DNA from: a virus
Direction: 5' to 3' (one strand)
IMG/VR virus record: IMGVR_UViG_3300031660_000051
Location: 1-25,971 of that record
Length of the DNA: 25,971 nt
This document shows positions 3,243 through 23,703 of this stretch, piece after piece; positions within the stretch are counted from its first letter, which is position 1, and each line of letters begins with the position of its first letter. The notes under the pieces are model-generated. The model had not been told where the DNA came from. It worked only from the letters and a program-made list of their open reading frames with translations, and ran no database searches. The translations under genes and the position numbers were made by a program.

Positions 3243-6200
3243 TTAAGAGTCTGTGTAATATATTGCATGTCCATAGATAGACGAGCTGGGGTTACTTAGA
3301 TGGCTATATGACATAATTGACCACCCACCAGAGCTATTACCATAGAAATTTAGGTAGCTAGCGCCACCATTTAGATAAACATTTGGTGTTGCTGTACTAA
3401 TGCTCTGATACATTACAGACCCAACCGTTCCATGCCCCATATACCCATTAGATACAAAGGGTAAGCCTGTTATAGAAACGTAGTTAGAACTGGAACGCTC
3501 ACTAAAAGAAGACGCTACAAACCAAACAGTAACTTTATTACCTACTTTAGTGTACTTCGCATTTACAGCAGCGATTGTGCCAAGGCTAGCGGCAGGTTGC
3601 CAAGTACCCTCTTCATAATCATCTAGCACCTCAGAAGTCATACCTCCTGCGTTACCATTAGCAGAGAAGTCTATGCCTTTGCCTGATGTGCCTATGACTA
3701 GGTTGCCTGTGTTGACTGTAGCATCCCCGTTGGTTTCAGCGGTTAAGACTTGAGCATTATTTGAAATTAAACTTGCAGGATAGTTGTTCAATGCGCCTAA
3801 CTTAACAAAGGCGTTGTTTGGGTCAGTGCCTACAATCATCTTCTTAGTGCCATCACTGGCTTCAAAGAAGTTTGTCATTACACCTCTGTTTAAATAAACA
3901 CCTAAGCCACTGCCTACACTTGCAGTGCCTATCCCTATACCATTACTCTGTATAGTTAGCTTGGTACTTGAAGCATTATCATCAATACCTGTGGAGGTGA
4001 ACGTGCCTGTGGATATAGCATCAGCCGTTACAGTGCCAGTTACGTCTATGCCACTTGCATCCACCCTCATACGTTCAGCGGCATTAGCCTTAAACTGTAG
4101 GTTGTTGTTGGCTTGGTCTATGATGTATGCGTTAGCTAGGGTTGCATCCCCTGCCAAGTACACTGTGTTTGTATCCGCATATACGTTTAGGTTAGCCCCA
4201 CCCGTTTTTCCTATGGTAGCTCTAACACCGTTAGTTGAGCTAGTAGCTGTCAAACCATTTGTGGTTACGGTACCTGTTACATCTACGCCCGCAGAAAAGG
4301 TCTGTGAAGATGCAAAGGTGTTTGCAGAGGCAGTCTCTGCATACTTAGTATCAGCTTCTGACTTAGTATAAGCACTATCAATAGGCTCAAACCTAGCATC
4401 AGAAGCAGTCTTACTATAATGATCCGCTAATAAGAACGTACCAAATGAGTGTATAAACACTACATCATCAACAGCAGCACCCGTATCCAAGATAACACTA
4501 GAGCCGTTAGTAGCTGTGTAGTCTTCTGCATCTAAGCGGATACCATTAAGGTATACCTGTAAGTACCCTGCATCATAAACAGCAGCGTAAGTAGTTTGGT
4601 TTGCAGTAGCCGTGTATTGAACACTATTGTTTGTACCACTAACAGCAGAACCCGCAGATACCCAACCAGAGCCATTATAAACCTTCATAATAGCAGCGCC
4701 AGTATCAAACCATAAGTCACCAGTACCCGGTGAAGAAGGTGTACCTGACTGAGATACATACTGACCTACGAATGTAGCTAAAGAAGCAGCCGAGCTATTC
4801 GCACTGTTTAATGAGTTAGTTTCACTCGTACTAGCGTTAGACTCTGAGGTAGCAGCGTTAGAAGCACTGGTAGCAGCCGCAGTAGTAGAACCAAACAATG
4901 TATCTGAATAGTTTTTAGTCACTACGTCTTGCGCTAGGGTAGGGTTAGCTACACCTGTGATCTTGTTAGCACCCATTGCAAGAACACCTGACATGGTGTC
5001 TCCCGCCTTAGATACCTTCAAGGCTTCGCCTGCATCTACATAAGTCTTAGTAGTAGCATCTGCACCCGCTGTAGGAGCACCTAAGCCAGTAATCTTGCTT
5101 GTACCCATAGCAAGGGCACCACTAAGGGTTCCACCTGTTAGGTTTAGCTTTAATGCATCGGCTGAATCCGTGTAAGCCTTAGTCACTGCATCGGCAGCAG
5201 CCGTAGGAGTACCTAGACCTGTGATTTTGCTTGTACCCATAGCAATAGCACCCGTCATGGTGCCACCCGCTTTAGGTAGTTTAGTTGCAATGCTGTTTGT
5301 TATAGTAGTATGGAAAGATGCATCATCGTTCAATGCAGCAGCCAGTTCATTTAAAGTATCCAATGCCCCGGGAGCCGCAGCAACCAAGTCAGACACTTCC
5401 TGATCTACATAACCTTTGGTAGCAGCATCGGCAGTGGCTGTTGGAGTACCCAGACCTGTGATTTTGCTTGTACCCATGGCGATGGCACCAGACATAGTAC
5501 CACCAGCTAGATTTAGCTTTAGGGCGTCTGCACTATCAACATAGGTTTTGGTAGTTGCGTCGGAACCTTGCACAGGAGCACTTAGGCCCGTTACTGTGGC
5601 TGCGGTACCTGAGTTCATGTTTAGTGAACCGTTGATGGTCAAGTCCGTGAATGAACTTGCACCTGTACTGGTTATGTTACCCGAGACGTTACCCGTTACA
5701 TTACCTGTTAGATCACCATCAACATCACCCGTTACATCTCCAGTAACTGCACCCGCAATTGGGCCTACGAAGTTAGTAGCAGTGATAGTGGTACCGACTA
5801 CAGTACTAGCAGAAGCAGCACCGATTGCAGTACCATCAATAGAACCTGCACCAATGTCTACCGTAGCTAGGACGTTAGTACCTGTACTGGTTACATTACC
5901 TGCTAAGTTTCCTGTTACGTTACCTGCAACTGTACCCGTGTGAGCACCGTTTGAATTACCTTGTAGGTTACCCGTTACATTACCCGACACGTTACCTGTG
6001 ACAGCACCCGAGATAGGGCCTACGAAGGCCGTACCTGTAATGGTAGTACCAACGATAGTAGTAGGAGTAGAAGCGCCGATAGTAGCATCATCGATAGTAC
6101 CCGCGTTAATATCTGCGGTATCTGCCACTAGGGCATCGATGTTAGCTGTACCATCAACCCAAAGATCCTGCCACTCTTGTGTGGTAGAACCTAAGTCATG

Positions 6201-6959
6201 TGTACCGTCTGTAGCAGGGAGTACATCCGAGTCTACCCGGCCAGTGAAGGTGACGGTATCTGAAGTAGCATTACCTAATGTTGTATCGCCTAATACATTT
6301 ACAGTGTTGGAGAATATAGCTCCGCCCGTGACGCCTAGGCTACCTAATACTACGGTATTACCCGTAAGAGTACTTGCACCTGTAACGGCAAGGGTTCCAC
6401 CTATAGCGGTGTTGGATGAAACAGTAAGAACACCACCTACATCGACATTACCCGTAGAGGACATAGTGACTGCGTTGATATCGTCAATGTAACCAACTCC
6501 GTCGATATGGATGTCTTTAAACTGTAGAGTAGACGTACCTAATGTAACTGTATTATTAACTTTAGGGGCAATGATGTTAGTGTTGCTGATTGCCGCTACG
6601 GTTACCCAGTTAGCATTGTTAGTTGTATTGTATAAGCACAGGTGGGTATAACCCGTGGAAGTGTTGATCCAGATCGAACCGGGTGCATAACCTGCGGTGT
6701 TATCATCTGTAGCAGCAGGATCAGCAGTCGCTGTGTTATTGTTACGACCACCGAAACCACCGTGAATAGCGGGTAAGTAACCAGACACAGACGTAGTTAA
6801 AGGTAGCTTAGGTGCGCTGCCCGTAGACCCGTCGTGGGTGTGTCCTGTTGAGGCGTTGAAAGCGGCTAATAACTGGTTAAATTCAGCATTAAGTGGTGGT
6901 GCAGTAATGTTCGCACCGTTAATAATGTCCGCTACTGACTGTCTAGTATATCCCGCCAT
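3243..6959 (-). CDS. Large repeat-rich tail fibre protein
   Basis: The protein has 1238 residues from the ATG at 6959. A TTG one codon upstream (6962) would add one residue, but the GGGGAG site is 6 nt from the ATG, so the ATG is preferred. It overlaps the stop of the upstream gene as TGATG. The N-terminus (MAGYTRQSVADIINGANI, then PLNAEFNQLLAAFN and GHTHDG) is a typical fibre attachment region. Next come T-G-N-V repeats (about 281-433) and four phage-tail repeats of the form TKTYVDSADALKLNLAGGT (about 453-685). A T7-fibre-like module follows (about 770-845, with QVYLNGIRLDAEDYT). The C-terminal module starts with EVLDDYEEGTWQP near residue 1105, a common distal fibre domain. Host recognition is inferred. 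Confidence 0.88.
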   Translation of the reverse strand: MAGYTRQSVADIINGANITAPPLNAEFNQLLAAFNASTGHTHDGSTGSAPKLPLTTSVSGYLPAIHGGFGGRNNNTATADPAATDDNTAGYAPGSIWINTSTGYTHLCLYNTTNNANWVTVAAISNTNIIAPKVNNTVTLGTSTLQFKDIHIDGVGYIDDINAVTMSSTGNVDVGGVLTVSSNTAIGGTLAVTGASTLTGNTVVLGSLGVTGGAIFSNTVNVLGDTTLGNATSDTVTFTGRVDSDVLPATDGTHDLGSTTQEWQDLWVDGTANIDALVADTADINAGTIDDATIGASTPTTIVGTTITGTAFVGPISGAVTGNVSGNVTGNLQGNSNGAHTGTVAGNVTGNLAGNVTSTGTNVLATVDIGAGSIDGTAIGAASASTVVGTTITATNFVGPIAGAVTGDVTGDVDGDLTGNVTGNVSGNITSTGASSFTDLTINGSLNMNSGTAATVTGLSAPVQGSDATTKTYVDSADALKLNLAGGTMSGAIAMGTSKITGLGTPTATADAATKGYVDQEVSDLVAAAPGALDTLNELAAALNDDASFHTTITNSIATKLPKAGGTMTGAIAMGTSKITGLGTPTAAADAVTKAYTDSADALKLNLTGGTLSGALAMGTSKITGLGAPTAGADATTKTYVDAGEALKVSKAGDTMSGVLAMGANKITGVANPTLAQDVVTKNYSDTLFGSTTAAATSASNAATSESNASTSETNSLNSANSSAASLATFVGQYVSQSGTPSSPGTGDLWFDTGAAIMKVYNGSGWVSAGSAVSGTNNSVQYTATANQTTYAAVYDAGYLQVYLNGIRLDAEDYTATNGSSVILDTGAAVDDVVFIHSFGTFLLADHYSKTASDARFEPIDSAYTKSEADTKYAETASANTFASSQTFSAGVDVTGTVTTNGLTATSSTNGVRATIGKTGGANLNVYADTNTVYLAGDATLANAYIIDQANNNLQFKANAAERMRVDASGIDVTGTVTADAISTGTFTSTGIDDNASSTKLTIQSNGIGIGTASVGSGLGVYLNRGVMTNFFEASDGTKKMIVGTDPNNAFVKLGALNNYPASLISNNAQVLTAETNGDATVNTGNLVIGTSGKGIDFSANGNAGGMTSEVLDDYEEGTWQPAASLGTIAAVNAKYTKVGNKVTVWFVASSFSERSSSNYVSITGLPFVSNGYMGHGTVGSVMYQSISTATPNVYLNGGASYLNFYGNSSGGWSIMSYSHLSNPSSSIYGHAIYYTDS
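4905..5600 (-). repeat. Four tandem phage-tail repeats inside the fibre gene
   Basis: Near-identical text (on the + strand, GATTTTGCTTGTACCCAT or close variants) recurs near 4957, 5090, 5219 and 5457. Each copy encodes a unit such as GAIAMGTSKITGLGTPTA followed by DAATKGYVD. Unit spacing is irregular: the interval between the last two contains an inserted stretch encoding LNELAAALNDDASFHTTI. Such units form trimeric fibre shafts and are prone to recombine between phages. Confidence 0.85.
5660..6120 (-). repeat. Two diverged long repeats with Gly-Asn-Val motifs in the fibre shaft
   Basis: The encoded text has two related units. One begins DINAGTIDDATIGASTPTT and the other DIGAGSIDGTAIGAASAST. 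Each is followed by a VVGTTIT or IVGTTIT strand, FVGPI(S/A)GAVTG, and then a run of short TGN(V/L) or GD(V/L) steps ending in TSTG. The pattern suggests an internal duplication of a beta-helical shaft segment. Confidence 0.75.
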
Positions 6960-8815
6960 CAACGTCTCCCCGCGATGCTAAATTCAAAAACGATTCCTTG
7001 TATGCTGTAAGGGTCAAAATTCCCCAAAGTAACAAAGGTAAGCTGGCAAGAATAGCCAGTGCCCTGTAGGCTGGTTGTAATGATGGGTTTCTCTGTTCCA
7101 CCATAGTTAATGTTGGTACCTGCATAATTAATGTTCTTCCCTTTATAGCGTACTGGTGCGCCTTTAGACTCTTGCGAATAGGAACTAGGGCTGGCTGTGT
7201 TGGGATCTTCCCAATCATACGATACCGCCATGTTCAAAGTCAGAGGGCCTTCAGCCCGTATAAATGTGTTGGCCTTACGCATGGTCTTCTTAACTTCGGT
7301 ATCTCCAAAGTCAAAGAAGGGCGTGGTGTATACGGATAGGATGTCTGCCCCATTAAACTGGTTGGTAGTCTCTTGCTGATAGACCTTGCCGTCGTAGTCA
7401 CCGTGTAGGACTAGCTCTTTTGAGTTAACATATGCCGAAGCACAGCAACTGGCACGAATGCCCACTAGCTCTCCAAACTCCCAACCTAACCTTTGGTCAG
7501 CCGACCGAAGACCACCAATGATGCCGAAGCTATCGGTGGTAAAGGTAGTATCGTCACCTATGAAGTAACGTAACTGGGACTTGCTGCGAATTACCACACC
7601 ATTGAGGGTAGATAAATCGTAGTCTTGTGGAAGCGCAGTAAGTAGTTGTTGTATGCTCTTAGAGATAGTCTCTAACTCAACGTCACCGATTCGACTTGTT
7701 CCCGCTACGGGGCGTAGTCCATCGGGTGCTAAGAACACTAGGTCACCACCAATCTCCAATACGGAATCTCGGGCAATGCAACCTACGTTGGTAGTAATCT
7801 GATCTAACACGAATCCAGCAGTCACGTCAGGGGATACTTTCTTAATTCCGTTATCACCAAATACAAATAGGTCACCACGGAACGGTTTAAACTGCACTAC
7901 GTCAAAGCCTATGGCTAACTGACCTGCACCAGCGGCTGATGTGAATGTAAGAGGATCTAATGGGGCAGAGTAGGCTATTGTCGCCTGTGCGACTCGATCT
8001 CCACCTAGGAATAGATGGTTCTCAAATGCATCAACCAATTCAGGTCGGGCTAAGGCACTTGGGCCTCCCGGGCTTGAACTGCCACCAGAGCCACTTGGGC
8101 TGATAGCTTTCCAGTTGGTACCATCATAGAGAACAGCGTTATTCACACCGTCTACGAAACATATCCTGTTACCACCGCCGAAGTTAAAGCTAACGTGGCG
8201 AAGTTTAGAGACTGTTCTAACACCATCTTTGAAATTGTGTACTATGCCCGTGGTATAGGGTGCCCATGCTGAGTAGGCTACATAACGATAGTATTTATAC
8301 TCGTTTGTATCTACTGTGATGGTGTCCCCTACTGTTGCACCCGTACCCAGCGTAACTGTGTTACCGCTGATACTATAGTGAGTGCTAACCGTTAGGGTTG
8401 TTGTGGTAGAACCCGTAGTCTTTGTAACAACCGTATTAGCTGCGTTGTTAATGTCTAGCGTTCTTGAGTTTGAATCTGCGCCAGTAAATGCTGTCTGGGA
8501 TGCCGTGGCTGTGTAGGTAAAGGTCTTAACCTTACGGGTAGCAATTATGACTGTAGTGTCTAGGTTGTCGTCTTTGAAGATTGCGACAGACAAGACTTTA
8601 CCCTCGGTATTAACGGGGTCTATTTCTTGATGGTTGGCATTAGCATTGTAAGGAGAGAAACCTTCAATTCTGCGGTATCCCCCAAATAGGCTAACTTCGT
8701 AGTTAACTAATCGGGTAGCGGAGCCGGGGGCATTTTCACTTAGATCTAGATGATTCTCGTTACTGTTAAGCCCGCCGCCGCATATTACCTTGTAGGACTG
8801 TACGCGATCAGCCAT
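6959..8815 (-). CDS. Tail tubular protein B-like (nozzle) protein
   Basis: This is a 618-residue protein directly after the tail tube A-like gene, with a 1-nt gap, in the order expected of T7-like short tails. The N-terminus (CGGGLNSNENHLDLSENAPG, then LVNYEVSLFGGYRRIEGF) matches the nozzle-type proteins I associate with podoviruses: a gly-rich opening followed by a 'reads the solution data' beta-propeller-like body (FKPFRGDLFVFGDNGIKKV and FLAPDGLRPVAGTSRIGDV). Residues about 97-169 (FTYTATASQTAFTGADSN to TLGTGATVGDTITV) look like an inserted T7-fibre-like beta module also seen in the downstream fibre. It probably forms the distal tail tube through which DNA exits. The family assignment rests on context and pattern, not on a search. 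Confidence 0.75.
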   Translation of the reverse strand: MADRVQSYKVICGGGLNSNENHLDLSENAPGSATRLVNYEVSLFGGYRRIEGFSPYNANANHQEIDPVNTEGKVLSVAIFKDDNLDTTVIIATRKVKTFTYTATASQTAFTGADSNSRTLDINNAANTVVTKTTGSTTTTLTVSTHYSISGNTVTLGTGATVGDTITVDTNEYKYYRYVAYSAWAPYTTGIVHNFKDGVRTVSKLRHVSFNFGGGNRICFVDGVNNAVLYDGTNWKAISPSGSGGSSSPGGPSALARPELVDAFENHLFLGGDRVAQATIAYSAPLDPLTFTSAAGAGQLAIGFDVVQFKPFRGDLFVFGDNGIKKVSPDVTAGFVLDQITTNVGCIARDSVLEIGGDLVFLAPDGLRPVAGTSRIGDVELETISKSIQQLLTALPQDYDLSTLNGVVIRSKSQLRYFIGDDTTFTTDSFGIIGGLRSADQRLGWEFGELVGIRASCCASAYVNSKELVLHGDYDGKVYQQETTNQFNGADILSVYTTPFFDFGDTEVKKTMRKANTFIRAEGPLTLNMAVSYDWEDPNTASPSSYSQESKGAPVRYKGKNINYAGTNINYGGTEKPIITTSLQGTGYSCQLTFVTLGNFDPYSIQGIVFEFSIAGRR

Positions 8816-11842: not shown

Positions 11843-12691
11843 CTAGCGTTTCATCATAGCAAACTTGACTGCTGGACGATAAGTATTCTTGCCATCTGTG
11901 GACTTGTAGGGGTCTTCTTCCTCGTCTTCAAGGGTTTCTTCTTCTATGGTGGTAATTGCAACGTCTACAGAGTTACCTTCGGGAGTCTCATACTCCTCCT
12001 CGTCTGCTTCGTAGGCTTCGTCTTCATCCTCCATATACTCTTCATCTTCTTCGTACTCTTCTTCAAGAGTCTCGATCTGACCTTCCATCTGCATCGCCAT
12101 AAGGCCCATCTTGGCCTCGTCACGCATTTCCATTAGATGCTTCAAACCATGCCATCGCACTACATCTGCTGGAACGACGTATTCACCATCACTTAGAGCG
12201 GCTGGGATATCGTCACGGACGTTCATTTCACTAGAGCCGGGAGGTACTGGGTTGCCGGACTCTTCGTCCATGCCTACCATCATCTCTGGCATCATCATAC
12301 CACCATGGAACATTTCAATAGGGGCAGACTCCTCCGGGATAGGGACTTCCTCCATCGGTGCTTCGATGGGTACCCCTGCGTCTGGGGGGAGGGGGATGTC
12401 CTCCGCTACTTCAGGCAGTAGGCCGTCGCTACGGGTTTGAGCATACTCACTGGCTTCAGGTTCACTATCAAATACAGGCAATTCTTCACCTGTAAGTGGA
12501 TCTACCGGGCCATTCTCTTCGATGAATGCTTCTAACTCTTCTTGAGAGAACTGCTCACCTTCTGCATTAACGGTAGGGATGGTTACCCAACCATACTTTG
12601 TTTCAAAAGTAATTGTGCGCTCAGAGAAGTTATCCCCTGTCTCGGGGTCTTCAAAAACCTTGCGACCTTTAGTTGTGTAAGTATCTTCCAT
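11843..12691 (-). CDS. Acidic structural protein with a conserved phage motif
   Basis: This is a 282-residue protein with a strongly acidic C-terminal half: a run of Glu/Asp/Tyr around 205-245 includes EEYEEDEEYMEDEDEAYEAD. The segment DDIPAALSDGEYVVPADVVR, then HGLKHLMEMRDEAKMGL, belongs to a motif I have often seen in proteins encoded between portal and capsid genes of marine podoviruses. A Met-rich patch precedes it (FHGGMMMPEMMVGM). Start and upstream stop overlap as TAATG. The function is unknown; an internal virion or portal-associated protein is plausible. The acidic tail could mimic DNA or bind the Lys-rich protein of the same operon, which is speculation. Confidence 0.7.
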   Translation of the reverse strand: MEDTYTTKGRKVFEDPETGDNFSERTITFETKYGWVTIPTVNAEGEQFSQEELEAFIEENGPVDPLTGEELPVFDSEPEASEYAQTRSDGLLPEVAEDIPLPPDAGVPIEAPMEEVPIPEESAPIEMFHGGMMMPEMMVGMDEESGNPVPPGSSEMNVRDDIPAALSDGEYVVPADVVRWHGLKHLMEMRDEAKMGLMAMQMEGQIETLEEEYEEDEEYMEDEDEAYEADEEEYETPEGNSVDVAITTIEEETLEDEEEDPYKSTDGKNTYRPAVKFAMMKR

Positions 12692-21999: not shown

Positions 22000-22320
22000 T
22001 TAGCCGGGGCGGAGTAAAAACAAGGCCTCTCAGCTTGATTTATTTAGGTCTTTTTTGCCCTGTTTTGGGCTTACTCAAATTGGCTGATAACTAGCTATAT
22101 CTAACGATAAAGCATTATCACTTTCGATATATTTTAACTTTCAGATTGGTCTGGACTTGAGCACTTTATTTCAATTAATCTGGATTATTTCATATTTTTT
22201 TTATTTTTCGGCCCACCCCAAGGGGTTTATATATATATGAATTATATGAAAAATATCAAACCTGAAAATTGCAGTATGGTCTTGACGTGCCAGTCTTTTT
22301 TCAATTTGATTTACTCAAAG
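22000..22320. other. AT-rich candidate attachment/control region upstream of integrase
   Basis: No gene is evident here. The stretch is rich in A/T runs, with GATAA AGCA TTATC as a short hairpin near 22109, and TCAGATT...AATCTGG arms near 22142 and 22177. One copy of the 24-nt repeat lies at 22271-22294, and a degenerate copy near 22148. Such composition and repeats next to an integrase are typical of attP regions, but no core was identified. Confidence 0.4.
22271..22294 (+). repeat. 24-nt direct repeat, copy 1
   Basis: Begins GCAGTATGGTCTTGAC and ends GTGCCAGT; identical to 22482-22505. It contains TTGACG, which could be a -35. A third, degenerate copy (GGTCTGGACTTGAGCA) lies at 22148-22163. 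Confidence 0.9.
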
Positions 22321-22329
22321 GCGAGGCAT

Positions 22330-22371
22330 AAAAAAACCCTCGACGGTATTCCCGGTTAAGGGCATCGAGGG
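22330..22371 (-). terminator. Intrinsic terminator of the small RNA
   Basis: In the leftward RNA, CCCUCGA pairs with UCGAGGG (7 bp), with an inner CCC/GGG stem, and is followed by seven U. On the plus strand no T-run follows, so it acts leftward only. Confidence 0.85.
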
Positions 22372-22446
22372 GTGAAGACGGTGCCATTCGGGGGAGGAGG
22401 AGGCACCAAGCAGGTGTTGAAAGTGGGAGGGAGTACTCTCAACAAG
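22330..22446 (-). ncRNA. Cuckoo/CcsR-like small RNA with two anti-Shine-Dalgarno hairpins
   Basis: Read leftward from about 22446, three stem-loops follow each other. Stem 1: UGUUGAGAG with CUUUCAACA (9 bp, one G-U; 22436-22444 with 22415-22423) around the 12-nt loop UACUCCCUCCCA. Stem 2: GGUGCC with GGCACC (22402-22407 with 22380-22385; a U-G pair extends it) around the 16-nt loop UCCUCCUCCCCCGAAU, which holds CCUCCUCCC exactly. Stem 3 is the terminator at 22330-22371 with seven U. A promoter (22451-22479) is set to start at stem 1. Two C-rich anti-SD hairpins plus a rho-independent terminator is the plan of cuckoo RNAs, including Rhodobacter CcsR. Those RNAs act on mRNAs by pairing; here the function is inferred. 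Confidence 0.75.
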
Positions 22447-22450
22447 ATAC

Positions 22451-22479
22451 ATATTACTACAGTGGGTAGTCTGGGTCAA
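22451..22479 (-). promoter_or_regulatory. Candidate promoter of the small RNA
   Basis: TTGACC (-35, 5 of 6), 17 nt, TAATAT (-10, 4 of 6), read leftward. The start expected 6-7 nt later is at or next to the first stem of the RNA. Confidence 0.6.
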
Positions 22480-22481
22480 CA

Positions 22482-22505
22482 GCAGTATGGTCTTGACGTG
22501 CCAGT
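22482..22505 (+). repeat. 24-nt direct repeat, copy 2
   Basis: Identical to 22271-22294, spaced 211 nt from it, and located just upstream of the small RNA promoter and about 55 nt before the integrase start. Its TTGACG followed at 17 nt by TACTGT may be a weak rightward promoter for the integrase. Confidence 0.9.
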
Positions 22506-22559
22506 TTATTTTAGTTACTGTGGCCATTCACACGAACTCATAACTGTGGAGTTATACGG

Positions 22560-23615
22560 ATGACAAAGTACCTAGAAGAACGAAGATTAGTGGGTGGTAG
22601 GGTTAAATATGCCTTCAACCCGTCCAAAGGGATCAGAAATGCCCTCAATTTAAGCTACCAAGCCTTCCCATCGAAGGATGAAGCTATCCAGTACTGCCAA
22701 AGGGTACACTTGGAGTTCAGTTTGCACCGTAAGATGCATGGTAATGCAATTGCATTGTTAGAAGAGAGTGTTGCTGACCTCATAAACTTCTATAAAACCA
22801 CCCATGAGTGGCTCAAACTGAAGGAAAACAGTCAAAAACACTACAATTTGTGTCTGAAAACAGCTACAGGACTGCATTTAGACAAGTCTAAGGCTACTTT
22901 TGGTACCTTTAAGGCTAAAACTGTCACTGCAACACAAGCAGACAGGCTCTACACTCAAATCCAAAAGGACTACAGTGATCATAGGGCTAGTCATGTGATC
23001 AAAGTACTACGCAAGGTGTACAATGTGAGCTTTAGGCATGACAAAGTGAAGGCTAACCCCTTTGCAAGCATGAATATACCTGAATTACCTTGTAGAACTG
23101 TCTTGTGGACTCCTGAACAGGTCATGGAGGTCATTGAGACAGCAGATAGGCTTGGCTACCCCTCTTTGGGTACAATAACCCTGCTAACCTATGATTTGTG
23201 TGCTAGGCCGGGTGATATGAGGCAATTGCAGTGGGATAACTACCAAGATGGTATGTTTATCTACACTCAGGAGAAGACAGGCACTGAAATGTGTGTACCA
23301 GCCTCCCCCCGTCTTATAGAACGCCTAGGTACTGCGAAGGAAGGGACTATAGCCGTGTGCGAGACGACAGGCAAGCCCTACAGTAAGGATCTGTTAGTCA
23401 AGTACTTTGCTAGGGTGAGGCGAATTGCCACAGTGCCTACCCATCTACAACTCAGAGACCTCCGCCGTACTGGTGCAACTGAAATGGCAGAGAACGGGTG
23501 TACTGAGGATGAACTAAGAGCAGTCACGGGACACCAATCGAGGGAGATTCTAGCCACTTACGTTAGACCTACGACTAAATTGGCCATGTCTGCTATGAAT
23601 AAACGCTTTGGTTAA
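22560..23615 (+). CDS. int: Tyrosine recombinase integrase
   Basis: This is a 351-residue phage integrase. GGAG lies 8 nt before the ATG. The C-terminal catalytic half shows R216 (CARPGDMRQLQW), K239 (TQEKTGTEM), R302 within LRDLRRTGATE, H325 in AVTGHQ, and the nucleophile Y334 in ATYVRP. The usual His of the H-x-x-R box is Arg (R299) here. The N-terminal part (FYKTTHEWLKLKENSQKHYN) fits the core-binding SAM-like domain. It would integrate and, with an excisionase not seen here, excise the genome. The small RNA gene lies just upstream on the other strand, with a candidate attP region beyond it. Host attachment site unknown. Confidence 0.92.
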   Translation: MTKYLEERRLVGGRVKYAFNPSKGIRNALNLSYQAFPSKDEAIQYCQRVHLEFSLHRKMHGNAIALLEESVADLINFYKTTHEWLKLKENSQKHYNLCLKTATGLHLDKSKATFGTFKAKTVTATQADRLYTQIQKDYSDHRASHVIKVLRKVYNVSFRHDKVKANPFASMNIPELPCRTVLWTPEQVMEVIETADRLGYPSLGTITLLTYDLCARPGDMRQLQWDNYQDGMFIYTQEKTGTEMCVPASPRLIERLGTAKEGTIAVCETTGKPYSKDLLVKYFARVRRIATVPTHLQLRDLRRTGATEMAENGCTEDELRAVTGHQSREILATYVRPTTKLAMSAMNKRFG

Positions 23616-23652: not shown

Positions 23653-23703
23653 AGCGAGGCCGCCCCGGGGCCGAGCACCCAATAAGGTAACAAAGGGGGA
23701 GAT

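Follow-up and report, generated by a model that had tools for sequence, protein, structure and literature searches.

A conserved small RNA with anti-Shine-Dalgarno loops beside the integrase of HMO-2011-type roseophages

Does a marine phage carry its own small RNA (sRNA) beside its integrase, and which mRNAs would such an RNA act on? The window, the whole stretch of DNA analysed here, is an IMG/VR virus record of 25,971 bases. We assigned it to the HMO-2011-type podoviruses, near the cultured Roseobacter phages CRP-3, CRP-235, and CRP-212, because of its integrase, primase, helicase, capsid, portal, and terminase genes. A preliminary description, made from the letters of the window, had proposed at this locus a phage-borne sRNA similar to cuckoo and CcsR RNAs.

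Position, promoter, and fold of the element

The structural genes of the window run leftward, and the integrase and replication genes run rightward. The sRNA sits between these two gene arms and reads against the direction of the integrase, from the other strand (Table 1). The promoter, the two stem-loops, and the terminator with seven U of the preliminary description were all found. The minimum free energy (MFE) of the sRNA was -39.1, compared to -23.6 +/- 3.0 for 200 dinucleotide shuffles (z -5.1), and none of the 200 was as good; the terminator was the most stable part.

In the MFE structure, 22444-22435 pairs with 22424-22415, giving a stem 1 of 10 bp around ACUCCCUCCC. The 9 bp described before are obtained once the last U-A pair is opened, which leaves a 12-nt loop, UACUCCCUCCCA. 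Stem 2 pairs 22407-22402 with 22385-22380. The hairpins display C-rich anti-Shine-Dalgarno (aSD) sequences (CUCCUCCC, CCUCCCUG, UUCCCCC): loop 2 has the exact CCUCCUCCC and loop 1 has CUCCCUCCC. The start predicted 6-8 nt past the -10 box falls at ~22443-22445, that is, at the foot of stem 1, where it had been expected. From these signals and their conservation, we infer that leftward transcription of the RNA would be driven by a sigma70-type promoter, divergent from that of the integrase (the two -35 boxes are 13 bp apart in the window), and that the transcript would end at its own terminator.

Two 31-nt direct repeats, 94% identical, flank the sRNA in the window. The repeat core TTGACGYGCCAGT recurs in relatives, before int and near a small ORF. 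This small rightward ORF lies to the left of the sRNA in relatives (gp01 of CRP-3; 5400-5740 in L094, and equivalents); the window has lost it, retaining the repeat and the sRNA there.

CRP-3 integrates into tRNA-Met(CAT) (PMC6918029). In the window and its relatives, CTCATAAC stands 15-25 nt ahead of the integrase start. We take this string to be the anticodon-loop sequence of the initiator tRNA-Met. If it is the attP core, the integrase and the sRNA would come to lie at opposite ends of the prophage. The exact initiator tRNA string, meant to settle attB, had no match in three genomes.

Table 1. Coordinates of the sRNA, its neighbouring features, and its candidate target sites in the window
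Feature	Position	Strand	Basis or remark
Cuckoo-like anti-Shine-Dalgarno (aSD) small RNA, ~115 nt	22330..22449	-	Fold z, covariance models; 5' end predicted at ~22444
-35 box TTGACC of the sRNA promoter	22474..22479	-	Sequence; relatives
-10 box TAATAT of the sRNA promoter, spacer 17 nt	22451..22456	-	Sequence; relatives
Stem-loop 1, 10 bp, loop ACUCCCUCCC	22415..22444	-	Fold; alignment of 11 sequences
Stem-loop 2, 6-7 bp, loop UCCUCCUCCCCCGAAU containing CCUCCUCCC	22380..22407	-	Fold; alignment
Intrinsic terminator hairpin	22337..22371	-	Fold
Terminator U7 tract	22330..22336	-	Sequence
Tyrosine integrase	22560..23615	+	PF00589 1.6e-10; CRP-3 integrase 47%
Divergent promoter-like site TTGACG-N17-TACTGT for the integrase	22493..22521	+	Sequence; TTGAC sites before int in relatives
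31-nt direct repeat, copy 1	22271..22301	+	Repeat search
31-nt direct repeat, copy 2 (GCAGTATGGTCTTGACGTGCCAGT...)	22482..22512	+	Operator, promoter, or integrase arm site
CTCATAAC, candidate attP core	22538..22545	+	Between int and sRNA; kept in relatives; putative assignment
Primase ribosome-binding region AACAAAGGGGGAGAT, candidate target of loop 2 (GGGGGAG/CUCCCCC)	23683..23703	+	Computed complementarity
Tail-fibre ribosome-binding region GCGGGGAGACGTTGATG, candidate target	6957..6975	-	Computed duplex

Conservation among related phages

The integrase query alone found no relative, and alignments were needed: with integrase and helicase alignments we retrieved 160 viral loci. Phages with an integrase 59-69% identical to that of the window, here called type A, carry the same RNA in the same place. 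We aligned 11 type-A sequences, ten relatives and the window. A covariance model built from the ten relatives without the window recovered the window RNA at 60 bits, with an E-value (1.4e-12) that is rough because the calibration of our own model was short.

Both stems are maintained. For stem 1, 110 of 110 cells were paired in the 11 sequences, with one pair changed on both sides and 6 on one side; for stem 2, 97.4% of cells were paired, and 3 pairs had changed on both sides. Together, this makes 98.9% of cells paired and 4 pairs with changes on both sides. The covariation score was reached by none of 500 shuffles, the slid-structure controls were 37-51% paired, and RNAalifold predicted the same two stems unprompted. 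The TTGAC -35 box was present in 10 of the 11 phages. The loops of the type-A relatives were CUCCUCCC (most) and UUCCCCCUU; the full aSD 9-mer in loop 2 was seen only in the window, with UUCCCCCUU at that place in the relatives. The preliminary description had set conservation of the loops among close relatives as a check, and the aSD loops are indeed kept.

At an integrase identity of 40-50% the sRNA is no longer alignable, but its plan recurs: a promoter comes first, followed by hairpins with C-rich loops (one to three of them) and a terminator. The cultured phages CRP-3, CRP-235, and CRP-212 have a cognate RNA in the same place and on the same strand, upstream of the integrase. In 38 dereplicated relatives, CCTCC or CTCCC preceded the terminator in 33, against 10.3 in shuffles (maximum 18 in 300 shuffles), and the complementary motif did so in none. 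The aSD motif lay within a hairpin loop in 22 of the 38 (1.6 in shuffles, maximum 5), and TTG[AC]-N15-18-TANNNT was found on the sRNA strand in 28 (4.1 in shuffles, maximum 10).

We also ran a generic, position-free descriptor (an aSD-loop hairpin plus a terminator) over both strands of 1.01 Mb of DNA from related phages. It gave 51 matches, 49 of them upstream of int on the sRNA strand. In L108, the matched element is again this one, separated from int by an additional ORF. Thus, 50 matches were this element and one was elsewhere.

Exact loop patterns detected no additional member in viral contigs outside the loci already fetched (the match in L012 was unrelated), and no integrase relatives were found in bacterial genome contigs. 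When 298 Ruegeria-family genomes were scanned with the model R1, two weak matches came up. L302, the better of these, was considered as a bacterial homologue; it has similar stems but no aSD loops and hence was not counted. As far as sequence can establish it, this is a conserved RNA gene.

Relation to cuckoo/ar14, CcsR, and c4 RNAs

When compared to all Rfam families over the window, the top match was RF02344 (ar14), exactly at the sRNA and end to end. The preliminary description had named the cuckoo covariance model as a check, and here the proposal fell short: although it was the top match, it scored 27.0 bits (E 0.2), below the gathering cut-off of 58.8. None of the 8 sources with relatives reached this cut-off either. 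In Rhodobacteraceae genomes, the same family scored 32-68 bits, and two of five exceeded the cut-off.

The loop motif of cuckoo/ar14 RNAs was described earlier (PMC3927594). NfeR1 of Sinorhizobium belongs to the ar14 RNAs; reporters and loop mutants have demonstrated that its aSD loops pair at the ribosome-binding site and prevent translation (PMC10746234). Like the ar14/cuckoo family (RF02344), the phage RNA has adjacent hairpins with aSD loops, variable stems, and a terminator. Cuckoo RNAs present two to four adjacent hairpins followed by a terminator, and so do the window and the type-A phages; in the other relatives the number of hairpins varies from one to three, and some of these phages have the extra loop motif UUGCUAGUG. 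The variable stems are kept by compensation, as in cuckoo RNAs. However, the phage RNA is a phage-encoded, single, short unit, and the exact CCUCCUCCC, which cuckoo RNAs carry in every loop, is in loop 2 only. The RNA of CRP-3 (L002 256-323, -) also had a weak match to another sRNA family, RF02837 anti-hemB (21.9 bits, cut-off 49.5).

The genomes of Ruegeria, Tropicibacter, Aliiroseovarius, and Pseudoruegeria contain tandem arrays with CUCCUCCCUG loops and the exact 9-mer in nearly every loop. The ORF upstream of these host arrays is presumably DUF1127-like. The CcsR1-4 arrays of Rhodobacteraceae, in which the tandem RNAs are co-transcribed with an upstream DUF1127 ORF, are the probable host counterpart of the phage RNA, and CCUCCCUG is common to the host loops and many phage loops. 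Many aSD loops stand in a row in the host arrays, downstream of the DUF1127-like ORF; the phage RNA lacks this ORF and consists of one unit, preceded by a promoter of its own. Thus, the initial proposal of a cuckoo/CcsR-like phage sRNA holds for the architecture, the promoter, the terminator, and the conserved loops, but not for the ar14 score or the array of host type. The phage sRNA is a cuckoo-like variant, and its ar14 membership is not proven.

Another known phage-encoded RNA is the c4 antisense RNA of phages P1 and P7, which controls immunity by closing a ribosome-binding site of the phage itself (review PMC12197685). The sRNA described here resembles c4 in being encoded by a phage. It differs in that c4 has a single linked mRNA, ant, as its target and recognises it by specific antisense pairing; c4 is not known to have aSD loops.

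Candidate targets and alternative explanations

We consider it probable that the element is a stand-alone sRNA of temperate HMO-2011-type roseophages, with aSD loops that pair with ribosome-binding sites. The C-rich loops would bind G-rich ribosome-binding sites and thereby prevent translation, as for NfeR1. Masking of these sites by the phage RNA is suggested because of the NfeR1 mechanism and because many phage loops share CCUCCCUG with the host arrays. Its most likely role would be to limit protein synthesis from the replication and late genes of the phage itself, given its position in the lysogeny region and the 12-14 nt matches to the primase site in some relatives. Host mRNAs with strong Shine-Dalgarno sites are probable further targets.

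Among 24 window genes, the strongest duplexes were predicted for the tail fibre (-21.5) and the primase (-18.5). When the bare loops were used, three window genes lay within 0.3 kcal of each other: the one at 11843-12691, with a perfect match of 8 nt, the primase, and the tail fibre. The perfect run between loop 2 and the primase site reaches 12 nt in L094, where the primase ranks first of 54 genes, and 14 nt in L096, where loop and primase leader each lack one base of the C/G run. The match is 7 nt in the window, no better than for shuffled loops (p 0.48), and it is poor in L105 and L106 (3 nt in L106). In a double-centred swap test over 37 phages that ignored relatedness, and which relatedness and base composition can inflate, cognate sRNA/primase pairs were favoured (p 0.0006); the integrase gave p 0.008 and the helicase p 0.41. 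Inside type A alone, the swap test for primase coevolution was not significant (p 0.27). We regard an action of the sRNA on the phage's own replication genes as a good lead, not proof.

The tail fibre ranked second of 59 genes by predicted pairing in CRP-3, first of 60 in CRP-235, and fourth of 58 in CRP-212. We rejected it as a coevolving target: its CAGGGAG site falls within the last part of the preceding coding sequence, and the type-A loops do not follow it. The tail-fibre gene (3243-6959, -) begins at the ATG at 6959 and overlaps the end of the gene before it, so that its Shine-Dalgarno site GCGGGGAGACG doubles as coding sequence; automatic ORF calling places the start at TTG 6962.

Directly ahead of their start, GP88-like and DUF932 genes have a common leader tag, CACTAGCAAAA(G)AGG or a similar sequence (window 21024-20990 (-) and 21913-21890 (-); L117 4740, 3758, and 2738 (-)). 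Each tag is preceded by a GC-rich hairpin with GGUGG in the loop. A third sRNA hairpin, present in L110, L113, and L117, carries UUGCUAGUG, which is exactly complementary to the leader tag.

Loops and candidate targets can be paired by clade: UUCCCCCUUAAA with UUUAAGGGGGAA, UUUUCCCCUUAAAA with UUUUAAGGGGAAAA, and UUGCUAGUG with the CACUAGCAA leader tags. A tentative reading is that of a lysis-lysogeny switch, in which the sRNA loops would, for as long as the RNA is produced, close the ribosome-binding sites of the phage primase and late genes, and the loops would have diverged with their targets clade by clade.

Somewhat doubtful is a main action on the host, by which the sRNA would imitate cuckoo RNAs and silence host mRNAs with strong Shine-Dalgarno sites, or compete for targets, Hfq, or RNases. 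The CUCCUCCCUG loops of the Roseobacter-type host array, the CCUCCCUG of many phage loops, and RF02344 as the top Rfam match of the window are in line with it, as is GGAGG before 9% of host-contig ORFs vs. 0-5% in phages. However, host G+C is higher, and phages with the sRNA are no different in GGAGG avoidance from related phages without it, where GGAGG is equally rare. Since this avoidance is independent of the sRNA, a host-only role gains no support from it. Besides, some loops match phage sites far past the aSD core. On balance, the sequence evidence seems to point to the phage's own mRNAs at least as much as to host mRNAs.

It is improbable that the terminator is the selected feature, for instance because it keeps leftward transcription from entering the end of the small ORF, with the hairpins as a leader without function in trans. 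The stability of the terminator and the small ORF heading towards it in most relatives would agree with such a by-product. But the loops remain C-rich while the stems change by compensation, the promoter on the same strand is conserved, the aSD motif occurs at 3 times the shuffle frequency with its complement absent, and the window retains the RNA without the small ORF. Very improbable is a part of attP, with hairpins and repeats as DNA sites for the integrase or an excision factor and no RNA gene: despite the adjoining int, the 31-nt direct repeats on either side, and the tRNA-Met-like core nearby, the stems keep G-U pairs that are sensible in RNA only, promoter and U-tract terminator share their orientation, and the C-rich strand is always the sRNA strand.

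The stand-alone phage sRNA that we favour has company in other viruses. At least 120 viral contigs have two copies of CUCCUCCC, with both copies in well-formed hairpin loops in at least about 18 of them. Among the listed viral contigs, at least three score above the ar14 cut-off (L340, L352, L384). Other listed contigs with double hairpins and CUCCUCCC loops are L351, L356, L378, L393, L397, L400, L402, L420, L431, and L432; in at least three contigs (L351, L400, L432) a phage repressor-like gene lies within ~1 kb of the double hairpins. Some of these double hairpins stand directly ahead of a start codon, leader-like. Therefore, phage-borne cuckoo-like RNAs are more widespread, and any claim to a first case is weaker. 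The preliminary description was not aware of any phage member; in the literature searched we found no paper describing a phage-encoded cuckoo-like RNA, yet other viral contigs carry bona fide ar14 RNAs. What is new here is that the RNA has a fixed place next to the integrase in a whole clade of abundant marine phages.

HMO-2011-type phages rank among the dominant marine viruses (PMC9038755). For them, a conserved aSD RNA beside the integrase would regulate lysogeny or host takeover while being invisible to gene annotation. The sRNA is carried by CRP-3, which was shown to integrate into its host (PMC6918029), and this makes it directly testable. Finally, a phage counterpart to the host cuckoo RNAs lets one ask whether aSD regulation was borrowed from hosts, and whether it is aimed at host or phage mRNAs.
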